A stretch of DNA of 64,000 bases from an uncultured Flavobacteriaceae bacterium (GTDB taxonomy: Bacteria > Bacteroidota > Bacteroidia > Flavobacteriales > Flavobacteriaceae): assembly GCA_913045325.1 (NCBI GenBank), contig CAJWPZ010000004.1, positions 1 to 64,000 of the forward strand. The letters are read 5' to 3'. Shown piece by piece: positions 1,865-15,527 of this stretch. How positions within the stretch are numbered: position 1 is the stretch's first letter; each line of letters starts with the position of its first letter. A program made the position numbers and the translations under genes. The notes under the pieces were generated by a model, which ran no database searches, had not been told where the DNA came from, and saw only the letters and a program-made list of their open reading frames with translations.

Positions 1865-2563
1865 ATGCTACACTTTTTTTCAAAATATAAACTCCTTGCT
1901 ATTGTTTTAATGGGGCTATCTGTGGTTATCGTTTCTATTATTTACAGTATCCTTACCCCCATAGAGGTGCTGCCGGTATACCAACCCTCCCAGGTAAGTG
2001 CGGCATTGGTGTCTCCAGAGATACAACACCAAAAAAAATACCACACTGTAGGAGACTTCAGTTTAACCAATCAAAACGGTGAGACCGTAACCCAGGCCAC
2101 CTACGATAATAAGATTTATATCGCAGATTTTTTCTTTACCACCTGTCAAACCATTTGCCCAATTATGACTGGCAATATGGTGCTTTTACAAAAGAAACTT
2201 CGCAACAACCCAGAAGTACTACTACTCTCCCATACTGTAATGCCAGAAATAGACAATGTGCAACAACTTAAAAAATACGCAATAGAAAAAAAGATAGACA
2301 GCAATAAATGGAACTTGGTTACAGGAGCTAAAAAAGAAATCTATACCCTAGCCAGAAAACAATACCTTGCTGCCAAAGAAAACCCAGATGATCCCCTAGG
2401 GCTTGTCCATACAGAAAATTTTGTTTTAATTGATGCCCAAAAAAGAATACGCGGCTTTTATGACGGCACCCTAGCACAAGAGATGGACCGGGTGATACAT
2501 GATATTTCGGTACTTCAAAACGAAGGTAAAAAGTCAATATTCTTTGGCCTTATTACCTACTAA
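1865..2563 (+). CDS. SCO1/SenC-family copper protein
   Basis: Membrane-anchored periplasmic thioredoxin-fold protein of the SCO family, which delivers copper to or reduces the CuA centre of cytochrome c oxidase. Residues 9-31 form one N-terminal membrane anchor. The copper-binding CxxxCP motif is at C94-C98 (TCQTICP), and the third ligand is probably H182 in the phrase LVHTENFVLID. Length 232 aa is normal. It diverges from rseP. The start ATG has a -7-like box 21 nt upstream. No other oxidase gene is in the window, so the target is inferred from the family only. Confidence 0.9.
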   Translation: MLHFFSKYKLLAIVLMGLSVVIVSIIYSILTPIEVLPVYQPSQVSAALVSPEIQHQKKYHTVGDFSLTNQNGETVTQATYDNKIYIADFFFTTCQTICPIMTGNMVLLQKKLRNNPEVLLLSHTVMPEIDNVQQLKKYAIEKKIDSNKWNLVTGAKKEIYTLARKQYLAAKENPDDPLGLVHTENFVLIDAQKRIRGFYDGTLAQEMDRVIHDISVLQNEGKKSIFFGLITY

Positions 2564-2642
2564 AAAAGTATTCTGTTTGTTAATGTGCAAAGCAACTAAT
2601 GACAGAATGTTACGTTAAAATTTCACAATACACAGACGAAGC

Positions 2643-2673
2643 TTTGTGGGTCAATTTCAAATAATTATTTTTG
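2643..2673 (+). promoter_or_regulatory. Consensus promoter of the lipoprotein gene at 2757
   Basis: TTTG (2643-2646), a 19-nt spacer and TATTTTTG (2666-2673) match the Bacteroidota consensus exactly. The start codon at 2757 would leave a leader of about 77 nt. Confidence 0.6.
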
Positions 2674-2756
2674 GCTATATACATTTAAGCCAAATAAAAT
2701 GCTGTGGCCAAACAGTTACAATGTGCACTATAGGTGCTAATCTAAAACAAATTAAA

Positions 2757-3500
2757 ATGATAAAAAATATACAAATTATTAGCTTGCTAGCATTATTTCT
2801 AGTGAGTTGTGGAGTTCCCCAAAACGAGCACAATACCCTTAAAAAAGAGCTGGAAGAAGTAAAAAAAGAGTTGGACGAATGCATGAACGGAGTATCTCAT
2901 GCTTTTGAAAATCACTCGATGAGGACGCTCTCTGTCGAAAAGAGAATTGCTTTTATGTCTGGACATGTGGAGTCAGGTTTAGCACTTTATCGAGCGGGAA
3001 AACCAGAACAAGCATCAAAGCATTTGTTACATCCTGTATCGGAAATTCATCAACAGGAGCGTGCGGGAATTGAGGCCTTGGGTTTTACCCCTGAAGTATT
3101 TAAGTCCGTATCTGAGGCGTTAAGCGAGGGAAGACCTGCATCAGAGATAGAACCTATGTTAGTTTCGGCCGAGGAGAATATAACACTTTTGCAAAATAAT
3201 TCGGGGGGTGATTTGGTCGAGATGATACGTTTCTTGATGGAAAAGGTAGTAGAGGAATACAACGAAGGTGTGCGCGATGGAGAGATAGTGGAAGCTGGAG
3301 AATATCAAGACGCTTTCGGCTTTTCGGTAGTAGCTCTCAAAATGTCGAAACGAGTAAAAAGCGAGCGGTCTGATCAACTTATTGTAGAGGCCACTAAATT
3401 AGTAGCAATGTGGCCAGAAATAGGCCCGCTTGCCGATTCTAAGCCTGAGTCTTTGAAAGATATTTTAGAACAGACAAATAAAATTCTTGAAAACTTATAA
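2757..3500 (+). CDS. Putative lipoprotein, unknown function
   Basis: I do not recognise the family. The chosen ATG at 2757 begins a short lipoprotein signal, with hydrophobic residues 5-15 and lipobox LVSC (Cys18). A longer frame opens at 2646, but it has no signal sequence and begins inside the predicted promoter. After the lipid anchor come a heptad-rich Lys/Glu coiled-coil segment (about residues 23-48) and then a mostly helical domain. Codon use differs from neighbours: TCG, GCG and CGA, rare elsewhere in the window, are frequent here. This suggests recent acquisition. 247 aa. Confidence 0.75.
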   Translation: MIKNIQIISLLALFLVSCGVPQNEHNTLKKELEEVKKELDECMNGVSHAFENHSMRTLSVEKRIAFMSGHVESGLALYRAGKPEQASKHLLHPVSEIHQQERAGIEALGFTPEVFKSVSEALSEGRPASEIEPMLVSAEENITLLQNNSGGDLVEMIRFLMEKVVEEYNEGVRDGEIVEAGEYQDAFGFSVVALKMSKRVKSERSDQLIVEATKLVAMWPEIGPLADSKPESLKDILEQTNKILENL

Positions 3501-3536
3501 TTGCTCTGTAAAATAGATAATAGAAAACATTGAGAT

Positions 3537-3728
3537 TTGCTAGCAACTATAGGGGAGAAATTCGAAAAGAATGAAACAAGCCAGCAGTATTATTTATTTT
3601 TATTGGCAGCTGGTTATTTAGTTAACAAGTTTGTGTGGTCTGCTATCTCAGACAAAAATAAAAAAGCGGTAGCCACCCTAGATGCAGGAAACACAAAATG
3701 CGGTAATGATAATTGTGGATGCCACTAA
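3537..3728 (+). CDS. Possible small protein with a Cys-rich C terminus
   Basis: This is a 63-residue frame with a TTG start directly after an in-frame stop, so the start is uncertain. It has one hydrophobic stretch (about residues 18-36) and ends in a cysteine/histidine tail, CGNDNCGCH, that could bind a metal. There is no clear promoter. It follows the lipoprotein gene by 36 nt. It may be a real small membrane protein, a gene remnant, or chance. Confidence 0.3.
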   Translation: MLATIGEKFEKNETSQQYYLFLLAAGYLVNKFVWSAISDKNKKAVATLDAGNTKCGNDNCGCH

Positions 3729-3748
3729 AGGGGCATTGCACTATTGTT

Positions 3749-4156
3749 TTAAAGTTTAATTCCTTTCTTAGAAACTTGTAATTGATATCCTAATTCTTTG
3801 CCGCTAGAATCAACAGGATACGGGAGTAATTTCAGGGCTGTAAACACAGAGTCTTTTGTAGTGGCAATAATCGTTTTACTTTCGTTTTGAAAAACTACCG
3901 TCATTTCTTGAGGCTCTTCACCGGTTACCCTAACAAGAATTTTTACTACCGCTTCCCCGGCCCAAATGCAGGTTGTATCTCTAGGACATCTAGAATCTTC
4001 TAAAACGGCAACCAGGGTTATAGCAACCTCAGATTTAGTAATTGTCTTGCCAAGGGGTGCCATAAAAGTAGAAGCGGCTGGATCTTGTTTTTGAGCTAAT
4101 GCTTGACAAGAAACAATAATACTAGCGATGCTGAGAATAAGTAGTAACTTTTTCAT
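3749..4156 (-). CDS. Small lipoprotein with DSRCP..CIWAG motif
   Basis: The first residues form a lipoprotein signal, with lipobox IVSC at Cys17. The body carries the phrase DSRCPRDTTCIWAGEA, a cysteine pair plus Trp motif that recurs in uncharacterised secreted proteins of Bacteroidota and other phyla. Two hydrophobic beta-strand-like stretches surround it, so a small beta-sandwich is plausible. It is just downstream of the metal ABC transporter, with 24 nt between the genes, and may be cotranscribed with it. Function unknown. 135 aa. Confidence 0.8.
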   Translation of the reverse strand: MKKLLLILSIASIIVSCQALAQKQDPAASTFMAPLGKTITKSEVAITLVAVLEDSRCPRDTTCIWAGEAVVKILVRVTGEEPQEMTVVFQNESKTIIATTKDSVFTALKLLPYPVDSSGKELGYQLQVSKKGIKL

Positions 4157-4180
4157 CGGTGTGGTGGTTTAAAAAAACAA

Positions 4181-5341
4181 TTAACCTCTAAATAAAAAGA
4201 AGTCGTCCTTTAGGTGTTCTATTTTGTCGTCTTTGTTTGTAATGATATACTCCAGTGCAGCTTGAGTGAAACTAAGCCCCTTTTGGGTCAAAGAAATAAC
4301 CTCATTGGTAATGCTAATCAGGTTATTATCTAAGGCTAGCTTTACAACTGTATTTGCTTTTACCTGTTGCCAATTAATGTGCTCTCTTAAATGATTGATG
4401 TGCCGTTCCTCTTCTTCTTGATGATTATTTAAGTGCAATAAAAAGGTAAGTAAAGATACTTCTGTGCGCTGTTGTTTTTGACGATACATGACAGACAACA
4501 CTCCTTTATTAGGAGCAAAAAAGTACACCAGTAAAAACACCAAGGCAAGTACTGTTGTAATAGACCCTGCAATAGAGGCATCCAACCAGTGCGCTAACCA
4601 ATAGCCGCTAATGGCTGCAAAAACACCAAAGCACACAGAAATCCATAGCATCTTCTTAAGGTCTGCTGTAAGTAAATATGCGGCTGCAGCGGGAGCGATC
4701 ATCAGCGCAACAACCAATATGGCCCCTACGGCGTCAAAAGCTCCTACCACAGTAATAGAGGATACAGACATTAGCCCGTAATGCAAAATAGCAGGAGAAA
4801 AACCTAGGGCAGAAGACAAGCCAACATCAAATGTGCTTACTTTTAATTCCTTAAAAAACAAATACAACAGCAGCAAAGTAATAAGTAAAATAACGCCCAT
4901 AATCCAGGCTGCTTTTGGCCCAAGATCTGCTCCAAATAACAGAAACCTATCAAAGGGAGCGAAAGCCAGTTCGCCAAGCAACACAGCGTCTACATCTAAA
5001 TGAATGTCATTGGCGTTTTTAGCAATTAATAACACCCCAATACTAAAAAGGGCAGGAAAAACAAGACCAATAGCAGTATCTTCTTTTACAAGGCCTGTTT
5101 TTTGGATGCGCTCCACCAAAACCACTGTAATAATTCCAGTACCGGCCGCTAAAATAATTAACACTGGAGAGTTAAGATCTTGAGTTATAAAAAATCCTAA
5201 AACAATTCCTGGCAAGATAGAGTGGCTAATAGCATCACTAATTAAAGCCATTTTACGCAACACCAAAAACACTCCTGGAATAGCACAAGAGACTGCAACC
5301 AAAGCGGCAATAAGTTGTATTTCTATTTGAGGATTACTCAT
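4181..5341 (-). CDS. Metal ABC transporter permease with C-terminal winged-helix tail
   Basis: ABC-3 family permease (TroD/MntB/ZnuB type) for divalent metal uptake. About eight hydrophobic helices fill residues 10-275. The cytosolic tail of about 100 residues is Lys/Glu/His-rich (HLNNHQEEEERHINHL) and ends in a sequence that looks like a winged helix, with the phrase LISLTQKG-like VISLTQKGLSF. Similar DtxR-type tails are known on some TroC/TroD permeases. I chose the ATG at 5341 because it overlaps the upstream permease stop by 8 bp; a start at 5380 would overlap by 47 bp and adds no recognisable sequence. 386 aa. Confidence 0.9.
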   Translation of the reverse strand: MSNPQIEIQLIAALVAVSCAIPGVFLVLRKMALISDAISHSILPGIVLGFFITQDLNSPVLIILAAGTGIITVVLVERIQKTGLVKEDTAIGLVFPALFSIGVLLIAKNANDIHLDVDAVLLGELAFAPFDRFLLFGADLGPKAAWIMGVILLITLLLLYLFFKELKVSTFDVGLSSALGFSPAILHYGLMSVSSITVVGAFDAVGAILVVALMIAPAAAAYLLTADLKKMLWISVCFGVFAAISGYWLAHWLDASIAGSITTVLALVFLLVYFFAPNKGVLSVMYRQKQQRTEVSLLTFLLHLNNHQEEEERHINHLREHINWQQVKANTVVKLALDNNLISITNEVISLTQKGLSFTQAALEYIITNKDDKIEHLKDDFFLFRG

Positions 5342-8870: not shown

Positions 8871-11177
8871 ATGAAAAATTTTCTTTTACTCTTGCTTTTT
8901 ATAAGTCTTTCCTCCCATGCTCAACAAACTAACAGTATCATTAAAGGAAAAGTGACTTCAATGAACCAAGCTGTTCCCTTTGCTTCTATCTACTTAAAAG
9001 GTGGCTCTAAAGGCACAACCGCCTCAGCAAATGGAAACTATAGTTTAGAATTACCCCAAGGCACCTACACCTTAATTGCACAATCGCAGGGCTATACTCT
9101 TGCAGAAAAAAGTATAGAAATTAATGCAGAAAAAACCATTACGCTACATTTTGAACTAGAGCCAAATGACGAAGTTTTAGCAGAAGTAGTTGTTACTGGA
9201 ACCCGAACACCTAAACGAAGAACAGACTCTCCTGTAATTGTAAATCTAATTAATAGTGAAACATTAGCGCAAGTTGTTGCTACAGATTTATCTGAAGGAC
9301 TTAGATTTCAGCCAGGATTGCGCGTTGAGACAGACTGCCAGACGTGTAACTACACGCAGCTAAGAATGAATGGTCTTCAAGGTGGCTACTCACAAATTTT
9401 AATCAACAGCCGCCCTATTTTTAGCCCACTAACTGGTTTGTATGGCTTACAGCAAATCCCCGTAAACATGATTGAACGTATTGAAGTGGTTCGCGGCGGT
9501 GTTTCAGCACTATATGGATCTAGCGCTATAGGTGGTACTGTAAATGTTATTACTAAAATCCCTAAAAAAAATGAATATAGCTTAAATTATACCTTTGAAA
9601 GTCTTGATGGTGATACCCAACAGCATGTGTTAAGCGGAAATGCGACAGTAGTTAGTAAAGACTATAATGCTGGGGCTACTTTTTTTGTGAACCGTCGAGA
9701 AAGAGGAGTTTTTGATGCAAATGGTGACAACTATTCTGAGTTACCTTCTCTAAAAGATAATTCTTTTGGTGTGAATGCTTTTATTCTTCCCACAGAAAAT
9801 TCAAAATTAGAAATGAGTTTTTCTAGTTTATATGAATACCGGTACGGAGGGGAAATTACGGATAAAGTAGCATTTCTCGCAAAACAATCTGAAGAACGCA
9901 CCCATAATGTATTGATGGGGAGTCTTGATTATCAAATTAATTTCAATGAAGATAAAAGTTCATTTATAGCCTATTATGGCGGGCAGCAAACAGATCGTGA
10001 TCACTACACAGGAATCATCCCAGATGATCCAATACAACAACAAGCATTTTATGAAAACCCTCCCTACGGAATATCAGATGTAAGTACACATCAAGGGGGT
10101 ATCCAGGTGAATCATAGATTTGATCGTTTCTTGGGTGGAAAAACGACACTTACCGGTGGTGTTGAATATGTTTATGACGATGTTTTTGATGAGATTCCTT
10201 CCTACCAATTTCTTGTGGATCAAACCACAAAAAACCTAGGTGCATTTGTTCAAAATGACTGGGATGTTACTGAAAAAATAAATTTCTTAGCTGGTTTTAG
10301 ATTGGATGATCACAACCTTGTAGACAATGTAATTTTTAGTCCTCGTATGTCACTGCTGTATAAATTTCAAGAAACAACCCAATTTCGTGCGGGTTGGGGA
10401 ACAGGTTTTAGAGCTCCACAGGCATTTGACACAGATTTACATATCGCTTTTGCAGGGGGAGGAGTTTCTAGAATTGCTTTAGCTGAAAATTTAATAGAAG
10501 AACGTTCTAACAGTTTTACAGCCTCCGTAAATTATGATAAAGCAACAGAACATTTTATTGCTGGTTTTACAGTGGAAGGATTTTATACACATTTAGATGA
10601 TGCGTTTTTCTTATCTCCAGTGGGAGAAGACGAATTTGGCGAACTCTTTGAAAAAAGAAACGGTAGCGGAGCAACAGTAAAAGGTATCACACTGGAAGGA
10701 CGGGCTAATTTTGATTATGTTTTCCAGGTAGACGCTGGGTTCACCATCCAATCTAGTAAATTTGATGATGCCGTAGAAACTATTGAAGACCTCGCCCCTA
10801 AACAGGAATTTTTAAGAACCCCGAACCAATATGGATATGCAACAGTAACATATACTCCTACCAAACAGTGGACTGCTAGTGCAAATCTTGTCTATACAGG
10901 ACCTATGGATATCGCACACTTTGCAGGCGAAAATACAGGACAAACGGTTGATGAATATTTTAGAACCCCTTCTTTTACGGAACTAAGTTTTAGAGTAGCA
11001 CGCAAATTTGAGCTTGATAATATAGGAACAGGGCTCGAATTATACGGAGGTATTAAAAATGTAACTAACAGTTATCAAGACGATTTTGATACTGGAAAAA
11101 ACAGAGATAGTAACTTTGTATATGGACCAGGTTTGCCTCGAAGCTTTTTTGTAGGTTTGACCATAAACTCTTTATAG
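8871..11177 (+). CDS. TonB-dependent outer-membrane receptor
   Basis: Signal peptide (residues 1-18), a carboxypeptidase-regulatory-like beta domain (about 23-98), a plug domain (about 105-230, with IERIEVVRGGVSALYGSSAIGG) and a beta-barrel to the C terminus at 768, total 768 aa. It belongs to the small classical TonB receptors, not the larger SusC type; no susD gene follows. The plug has an unusual cysteine pair, C156 and C159 (CQTC). Its position opposite the DtxR/MntR repressor and ABC importer, across a shared operator, suggests it imports a metal or metal chelate. A thioredoxin-like gene follows after 3 nt. Confidence 0.93.
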   Translation: MKNFLLLLLFISLSSHAQQTNSIIKGKVTSMNQAVPFASIYLKGGSKGTTASANGNYSLELPQGTYTLIAQSQGYTLAEKSIEINAEKTITLHFELEPNDEVLAEVVVTGTRTPKRRTDSPVIVNLINSETLAQVVATDLSEGLRFQPGLRVETDCQTCNYTQLRMNGLQGGYSQILINSRPIFSPLTGLYGLQQIPVNMIERIEVVRGGVSALYGSSAIGGTVNVITKIPKKNEYSLNYTFESLDGDTQQHVLSGNATVVSKDYNAGATFFVNRRERGVFDANGDNYSELPSLKDNSFGVNAFILPTENSKLEMSFSSLYEYRYGGEITDKVAFLAKQSEERTHNVLMGSLDYQINFNEDKSSFIAYYGGQQTDRDHYTGIIPDDPIQQQAFYENPPYGISDVSTHQGGIQVNHRFDRFLGGKTTLTGGVEYVYDDVFDEIPSYQFLVDQTTKNLGAFVQNDWDVTEKINFLAGFRLDDHNLVDNVIFSPRMSLLYKFQETTQFRAGWGTGFRAPQAFDTDLHIAFAGGGVSRIALAENLIEERSNSFTASVNYDKATEHFIAGFTVEGFYTHLDDAFFLSPVGEDEFGELFEKRNGSGATVKGITLEGRANFDYVFQVDAGFTIQSSKFDDAVETIEDLAPKQEFLRTPNQYGYATVTYTPTKQWTASANLVYTGPMDIAHFAGENTGQTVDEYFRTPSFTELSFRVARKFELDNIGTGLELYGGIKNVTNSYQDDFDTGKNRDSNFVYGPGLPRSFFVGLTINSL

Positions 11178-13829: not shown

Positions 13830-15527
13830 TTAGTTTACAAAGAGATCTATCGTTACTTTGTTTTGAAGATCTTTCATGGCAATAATCTTAGTTTTTTTGG
13901 TCTGGGTAGGTAAGCCGTAATCTTGAAATACCGTATATTTTAAATACGTTGGGTTTTTAGGTCTTTCATTGGATAAAAACTCCATATTAACAACCCAAGT
14001 ACCTGGCTGGGCATCATCAATGATATGTTCTTTAATGGCATATCCTTGAGAAACCTCATCCTGCAATAAAGTTTTAGATTCAAACCCTGTGTGAGTCCAG
14101 TTAAAAAACTTGCGCTCAGGACTCACAAATTGGATATCAAAATCTACGTCAGGTTGTGTCCATTGAAATACCATTCTAATATCCTTTTTATAATTAAGAC
14201 TCAGTAGTTCATTAGGTAATTTTTCAAAGGGTACTTTAGATTTATGAAAGGCTAGTAGGTGTCTAAGTTCATTATAGGCCAATTCTTGTATTGCAGAACA
14301 GTCTACATTTGGTATTGTATTGTATACAATTTGATACAGTAAGGTAAAGGCTAGCTCATAATCTCCAGCAGCTTGATGAGCCAAGGCAAGGTCCCTGTAC
14401 CCTTGAGAGCTATCTGGCCTTAAAGCTAGTATACGAGTGTAAATGCTTACTACTTTTTTATACTCTGCTCGCTGTTCCAAGATAAAGGCATAAGCCTTTA
14501 AGGCCTTTATATTGTTAGGGGCTAGAGAGGCAATGGTAGATAATATTTTAAAAGAGTAGCCTTTATCCCATCTCAAAAAGTAATCAGAAGATTCAATATA
14601 AAAAGGAATGGTGCTTATTGTCTTTTCTTGGGTTTCAAAAATAGCTTTGGCCTGGGCAAATGTGGTCGCCTTCTCTAGGGCAACCAGGGTAGTAGGTTTG
14701 GTCTTTACTGAGGCCAATAAAGGCACTGTTTCAATATACTGGTTGCCTTTAACTTGCAATGATTTTATTTTCTCTTTTGTGGTTACGTTGTTTGCTTTAC
14801 CAAGCTTTGTCTCAATAAAAATAATCCCTCCAGATCCTAATTGCCCGTAACGAAGCGTGGCAGTTAATCCTTTTAATAATTTTATAGATGAAATTTCACT
14901 TGGGCTCAAAGAGTTGAGGATACTTTGGTCTAGTAGTGCACCGTCCAAAACAACTCTAGGAGCCTGTGAGGTGATGGTTCTATTTCTAGTAAAAAGTATG
15001 GACTGATTGAATCCTGGCATCCCAAATATTTCTACCCCTGGCATTTTTCTTAAAATATCAAATACAGTTACATCTGTGCCTTTAATATCCTCTTCTGTGA
15101 TTTCCATGCCAGAACTGTACCCTAAAGATTTTTTGTTTTTTCTTCCATAGGCCGTTTCTTCGTATTGGTCTTTAGATTTTGATTTACCTTTAAGTACCAC
15201 CTCATCTAAGAGCTGGCCGTCATAATCTAGTTCAATTGTCATTGAAGCACCCCTTTTGATAGACATCTCTTTATACTCCATTGCAAATGAGGTAATTTCA
15301 AAAACAGTGTCATCTAGAGTTACCTTGATAGAAAACTCACCCTTTAAGTTGGTTACTGCCTCATTAAAGGTGTTTTTTACTGTTATGACAGCTCCTTGAA
15401 TGGGGCCGTCTACATTTTTAACAACGCCAGTAACTACTTCTTTTTGCTGTGCAGCAAGTACAGATACGCTCAAAAAAAAACATAACTGAATAAGCGATTT
15501 TGTACCTGAAATTAAAACACTTTTCAT
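13830..15527 (-). CDS. TonB-plug domain protein without barrel, with helical repeats
   Basis: A mosaic of 565 residues. Signal peptide 1-26, a carboxypeptidase-regulatory-like beta domain (about 30-105), a TonB plug-like domain (about 130-243; phrases VVLDGALLDQSILNSL and EISSIKLLKGLTATLRYG, ending GGIIFIETK), TPR-like helices (about 325-400) and a C-terminal beta domain (about 445-565) resembling the DUF2135 type, with PGTWVVNMEF. No beta-barrel follows the plug, so it cannot be an ordinary receptor. It ends 4 nt from plsC in convergent orientation. Export across the inner membrane is likely; the function is unknown. Confidence 0.85.
   Translation of the reverse strand: MKSVLISGTKSLIQLCFFLSVSVLAAQQKEVVTGVVKNVDGPIQGAVITVKNTFNEAVTNLKGEFSIKVTLDDTVFEITSFAMEYKEMSIKRGASMTIELDYDGQLLDEVVLKGKSKSKDQYEETAYGRKNKKSLGYSSGMEITEEDIKGTDVTVFDILRKMPGVEIFGMPGFNQSILFTRNRTITSQAPRVVLDGALLDQSILNSLSPSEISSIKLLKGLTATLRYGQLGSGGIIFIETKLGKANNVTTKEKIKSLQVKGNQYIETVPLLASVKTKPTTLVALEKATTFAQAKAIFETQEKTISTIPFYIESSDYFLRWDKGYSFKILSTIASLAPNNIKALKAYAFILEQRAEYKKVVSIYTRILALRPDSSQGYRDLALAHQAAGDYELAFTLLYQIVYNTIPNVDCSAIQELAYNELRHLLAFHKSKVPFEKLPNELLSLNYKKDIRMVFQWTQPDVDFDIQFVSPERKFFNWTHTGFESKTLLQDEVSQGYAIKEHIIDDAQPGTWVVNMEFLSNERPKNPTYLKYTVFQDYGLPTQTKKTKIIAMKDLQNKVTIDLFVN

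Follow-up and report, generated by a model that had tools for sequence, protein, structure and literature searches.

The window analyzed here, a 64,000-nucleotide stretch of contig CAJWPZ010000004.1 from an uncultured Flavobacteriaceae bacterium, carries on its reverse strand (positions 13830..15527) an open reading frame of 565 amino acids (aa), with an ATG start and a stop codon within this range; the reading frame is intact, and the gene is not broken. From the N-terminus, the encoded protein consists of a signal peptide, a CarboxypepD_reg-like domain (CPD), a Ton-box motif, a TonB plug domain, TPR-like helices and a DUF2135-like beta domain. A preliminary description of the locus had correctly given the signal peptide, the CPD, the plug with its GGIIFIETK end, the helices and the beta domain, coordinates included, as borne out by Pfam, NCBIfam, phmmer and hhalign. 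To these, we add the Ton-box motif at residues 107-112 and the connection of the family to VIT/VWA proteins, both of which were missing from that description.

Domain make-up and structure models

The probable Sec signal peptide, recognized from the sequence, comprises residues 1-27 (15447..15527, reverse strand) and has no lipobox; a lipobox-like pattern was found in none of 74 family N-termini, and no T9SS tail model is among the NCBIfam matches of the protein. The protein is predicted to be secreted, probably soluble, and located in the periplasm. The CPD (residues 32-111; 15195..15434, reverse strand), which corresponds to the NTE of SusC, matches CarbopepD_reg_2 (PF13715) with 33.2 bits, against a cut-off of 32.2. 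At its end, the motif LDEVVL (residues 107-112; 15192..15209, reverse strand) has the place and the pattern of VDEVVV in Bt1763, a SusC of B. thetaiotaomicron. The plug domain, of the SusC type (residues 143-241; 14805..15101, reverse strand), ends in GGIIFIETK at 233-241 and matches PF07715 over residues 143-235 well above the cut-off (34.8 vs 23.9 bits, E 2.5e-8), upholding the earlier call of a plug. The SusC/RagA model TIGR04056 scores 94.7 bits against residues 32-249, under its cut-off of 368 and over model positions 3-212 of 981 only, and the solved SusC structure 5t3r aligns with residues 8-248 (phmmer, E 2e-13). Comparison of a family plug profile with the TBDT plugs of the same genome gave an hhalign probability of 98.9, and the plugs of ten family members picked as more diverged gave 97.4 against TBDT plugs.

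The TPR-like helices (residues 279-431; 14235..14693, reverse strand) were delineated from weak TPR matches at 327-399, below the Pfam cut-offs, together with blocks of the structure model and the TPR structures that these retrieved. The beta domain occupies residues 447-565 (13833..14189, reverse strand). The C-terminal region of the window protein's clade aligns with VIT-VWA-TPR-DUF2135 proteins over 276 columns at an hhalign probability of 99.9, and the beta domain alone does so at 97.5. PF09906 is over its cut-off in the VIT-VWA-TPR-DUF2135 proteins; it gave no match to the 565-aa protein and none over cut-off in the whole-genome search. The DUF2135-like domain, placed by these profile comparisons, has diverged beyond the reach of Pfam in this protein, but the label given to it in the preliminary description is correct. 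The VIT and VWA domains themselves are absent from the 565-aa protein, as judged by Pfam.

The first AlphaFold2 model, built on a shallow alignment of the window protein with 6 close relatives (7 sequences), had a mean pLDDT of 45.7, and the second, with 6 NTE-plug segments added, reached 55.6. In the second model, the TPR part has a pLDDT of about 76-89 in blocks over residues 281-410, and the NTE is also usable, with ten-residue blocks of the plug at 38-55 and of the C-terminal domain at 26-52. In Foldseek searches with this model, the NTE hit the SusC NTE structure 9hfj (target TM 0.82, rmsd 1.5), and TPR structures were retrieved with the helices; the 50 of 56 matches listed (E <= 0.001) include no TonB-dependent receptor or plug structure, the plug being modeled at low confidence. 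The preliminary description had set its reading against a different fold of the plug-like segment; these models, weak as they are in the plug part, speak neither for such a fold nor independently for that of a plug, and the identity of the plug rests on sequence homology.

The missing barrel and the spread of the family

The 330 residues that remain after the Pfam plug match in the 565-aa protein are made up of the TPR and DUF2135-like parts, and no barrel model in Pfam matched the protein at E up to 1, in agreement with the earlier claim that no barrel follows the plug. A six-frame search of the genome (1.88 Mb, about 90% complete) found 16 plug places, that of the 565-aa protein scoring 38.6 bits. 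In the 14 of the 15 other plug ORFs that were read, 458-844 residues follow the plug; the fifteenth, at positions 8871-11177 of the window, has about 545, as calculated from plug position and ORF length, along with a barrel match. The short post-plug tail is, among the 16 plug places, peculiar to the 565-aa protein. All barrel matches in the genome (9 to PF00593 and 4 to PF14905) lie within plug-bearing ORFs, and no orphan barrel, that is, one without a plug of its own, was found with these models, which match 10 of the 15 other plug ORFs and miss 5 and are therefore of limited reach.

Relatives of the protein are encoded in about a third of the sampled Flavobacteriaceae: 96 of 299 genomes match at E <= 1e-20, the weakest of these matches possibly being SusC-only, and 90 match at E <= 1e-30, their make-up resting on the matches listed. 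In a sample of the phylum, matches at E <= 1e-15 were obtained in 85 of 395 genomes, many covering only SusC N-termini or only TPR-DUF2135 regions. Tandem sets are common, with up to four family genes, and a search for orthologues returned proteins that are 73-85% identical and share the domain make-up. A Pfam scan of 61 complete members, which includes the window protein and leaves out six aligned members (four near-copies of the window protein and two cut by a locus end), found CarbopepD_reg_2 in 60, Plug in 39, VIT in 7 and VWA_2 in 6, with DUF2135 (PF09906) in 21 at E <= 0.01. The plug is diverged in many relatives, lying beyond the reach of Pfam in 22 of these 61; a barrel model is outside the 25 families listed for them, so that at most two members match one. 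A profile of the family plug, partly circular because the family's own plugs were aligned to build it, recognizes the plug in 72 of 86 members, with 308-339 residues remaining after it in every one of the 72. Some members, L081 among them, have the make-up VIT-VWA-CPD-plug-TPR-DUF2135, and in several others of about 720 aa a VWA-like stretch is discernible by eye. On a tree of the C-terminal region (83 rows, 3 near-copies having been dropped from 86; midpoint root only), the presence of the plug, in 69 of the 83 rows, takes four changes, compared with 13.2 in shuffles, which points to several gains or losses of the plug, in either direction. Beside or among family genes at L072, L077, L083 and L094 are CPD proteins of 285-385 aa, the L083 copy having LNEVVV and no Pfam plug.

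A second class of barrel-less plug proteins exists, as judged from domain matches. CPD-plug-vWF_A-VWA-YfbK_C proteins are encoded at L079:13549-15714, L085:10677-13004 and L097:7281-9371, adjoining genes of the TPR-DUF2135 family, and matches spanning from residue 13 or earlier to at least residue 718 occur in 18 of 199 Flavobacteriaceae genomes. YfbK-like vWA proteins have been proposed, in PMC12204202, to act as force transducers driven by TolQ-like motors, an idea that is suggestive but separate.

TBDTs with both plug and barrel (two of them Pfam-checked) were also encountered at L116:1920-4481, L118:1902-4439, L115 and L117, on IMG/VR contigs of 11-253 kb, where they adjoin, by eye, apparent phage helicase or clamp-loader genes. 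The L116 protein has a match over at least 80% in two phage-collection records. The same TBDT match recurs on three IMG/VR contigs of 45-217 kb (L119-L121), in L119 at 1926-4391, where it adjoins a protein of 383 aa whose start resembles that of a lipoprotein.

Constraint on the plug and the Ton-box motif

Few parts of the protein are as constrained as the plug in the window protein's clade, where its dN/dS is 0.05-0.08 at usable dS. For the plug, dN is 0.025 and dS 0.504 between the window and L001 (ratio 0.049), and the ratios for the other parts are 0.204 (CPD), 0.108 (TPR) and 0.050 (C-terminal domain); compared with L004, the plug ratio is 0.081. The plug ratios for L005 (0.030) and L066 (0.129) carry little weight, since dS in several regions is at saturation or could not be computed. 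With a dN/dS far below 1, the plug of this clade is no relic. The TBDT at window positions 8871-11177 is almost identical to that at L001:10355-12661 (dS 0.02-0.11) and is unusable as a selection control; given that the dS of the plug protein between the same two lineages is far higher, at 0.43-0.93, a recent exchange of the TBDT gene between them is suggested.

The Ton-box motif, in the strict pattern [LIVM][DENSG][EQ][VI]x[VIL], is present at the expected site in 58 of 67 aligned family members, with nine departing from it, and anywhere in 63 of the 37,098 windows of the same 67-member sequence set; its mean conservation is 3.0 bits, compared with 1.5 and 1.4 in the flanks. For Bt1763, PMC7782687 places the Ton box DEVVVTG (82-88) between NTE and plug, describes the motif as unstructured and outside the folded domain in the NTE solution structure, reports levan growth defects resembling those of SusD deletion when VDEVVV is deleted or mutated, and suggests that the NTE is a selector among TonB proteins. 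Two TonB C-terminal domains are encoded in the genome studied here. The motif is found behind plug-less CPD domains as well, in 10 of 34 cases within a narrow tail window and in several more just beyond it, this fixed window missing motifs a few residues further on, and may thus belong to the CPD module generally rather than mark TonB use. In a 511-aa relative at L076, the plug is degenerate and the motif, as LDEVTI, is kept, and a 649-aa CPD-VWA-YfbK protein (L067:6598-8547) still has LDEVVI and the beginning of the plug but has lost the remainder; these two cases speak for a function of the motif apart from the plug.

Possible roles and kinship with known systems

Because the plug comes without a barrel, the signal peptide is present and a lipobox is missing, a soluble periplasmic module, as put forward in the preliminary description, is the natural reading. 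The ligand binding that it considered for such a module found no support, whereas a TonB-interacting role is supported by the retention of the whole cassette, the occurrence of the motif far above background and the strong purifying selection on the plug. We tentatively favor a reading, which may well be wrong, in which the SusC-type cassette serves as a handle that TonB can address on a soluble binding protein of the periplasm. By sequence, the N-terminal half is the complete TonB-facing cassette of a SusC-type transporter, with NTE, Ton-box motif and plug, and the C-terminal half corresponds to the TPR-DUF2135 part of VIT-VWA-TPR-DUF2135 proteins. In this reading, TonB would dock on the Ton-box motif and pull the plug domain; the force of ExbBD-TonB might then alter the state of the TPR/DUF2135 part or its hold on a partner, which would be placed on the periplasmic side of the outer membrane, the protein serving as a barrel-less, TonB-driven adaptor. 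Against the TonB handle, a pull on an unanchored protein would need a fixed partner to react against, and the occurrence of the motif after plug-less CPDs, the nine members of 67 that are off the motif, the divergence of the plug and the gene neighbors, among which an HD-domain gene in 12 loci and an acyltransferase gene in 12 have no obvious functional link, all count against it as well.

Somewhat less likely, and close behind, is that a periplasmic scaffold protein has taken over the plug as an ordinary protein-interaction or spacer domain, with LDEVV being part of the CPD module and TonB not involved. The motif found after plug-less CPD domains, the many plugs beyond Pfam and the generic interaction domains that make up the TPR and VWA relatives fit such a scaffold, but conservation within the N-terminal linkers is highest in the motif region, the plug of the clade is constrained as much as the C-terminal domain, and the corresponding motif of Bt1763 is outside the folded domain (PMC7782687). 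By analogy, the plug could alternatively work in trans, entering a barrel that belongs to some other outer-membrane protein and gating or sealing it from the periplasm, which we consider improbable. In favor of this, 58 of 66 members share arginine 181, at the place of the receptors' IRG motif. Precedents for action in trans include the separate T9SS Plug that seals SprA (PMC10994853, PMC8754138) and BamP, a loop of which enters BamA (PMC12611786). However, the genome yielded no plug-less barrel to models that missed 5 of 15 plug ORFs, and a conserved barrel partner nearby, raised in the preliminary description, did not materialize: only 6 of 38 loci have a TBDT-like gene close to the family gene, and L002, L004, L005 and L066 are not among them. 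It is scarcely credible that the protein is a decaying, functionless TonB-dependent receptor in which the barrel was lost and replaced. Such decay would agree with the divergence of the plug in many paralogues and its degeneration in the 511-aa relative, but not with an intact frame, orthologues that keep the same make-up, a plug dN/dS far below 1 and relatives in 90 of 299 genomes; we rejected it on account of the selection on the plug and the distribution of relatives.

The plug is commonly taught as the gate of a barrel. If the TonB handle is real, a gate and a pull-handle have been selected without a barrel, so that both can work alone, and a direct test of TonB moving non-transporter proteins becomes possible; the wide spread of the family hints that the TonB energy system may pull more than import channels. 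In its most general form, the proposal is doubtful: Bacteroidota would possess a barrel-less TonB-dependent class, in which the cassette has moved onto soluble periplasmic VWA, TPR-DUF2135 and YfbK proteins and the force of ExbBD-TonB acts on protein complexes, not only on import channels. Genome annotation tends to call such proteins TonB-dependent receptors, and this would inflate the counts of nutrient transporters in marine flavobacteria.

Among the papers listed in searches of the open-licence PMC literature, none has, by title or beginning of the abstract, a barrel-less plug protein as its subject. Two stand-alone proteins of Flavobacterium johnsoniae that close or penetrate barrels in the outer membrane, T9SS Plug and BamP, may be comparable by role, and the BamP model NF053692 matches residues 12-122 only, and weakly (27.1 bits, cut-off 230). 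With SusC/RagA (TIGR04056; 5t3r, Bt1763), the window protein has the succession NTE, Ton-box motif and plug in common, with homology over residues 8-248, but it lacks the beta-barrel and the C-terminal aromatic and scores far under the TIGR04056 cut-off. The CPD-plug-vWF_A-VWA-YfbK proteins of L079, L085 and L097 likewise employ the SusC N-terminal cassette without a barrel, although the partner domain is VWA/YfbK rather than TPR-DUF2135. Finally, the TPR region and DUF2135 are homologous end to end to those of the VIT-VWA-TPR-DUF2135 proteins (L088, L090, L093); unlike these, the window protein has no VIT/VWA and carries the NTE-Ton box-plug cassette instead, whereas L081 and other members of the family combine both.
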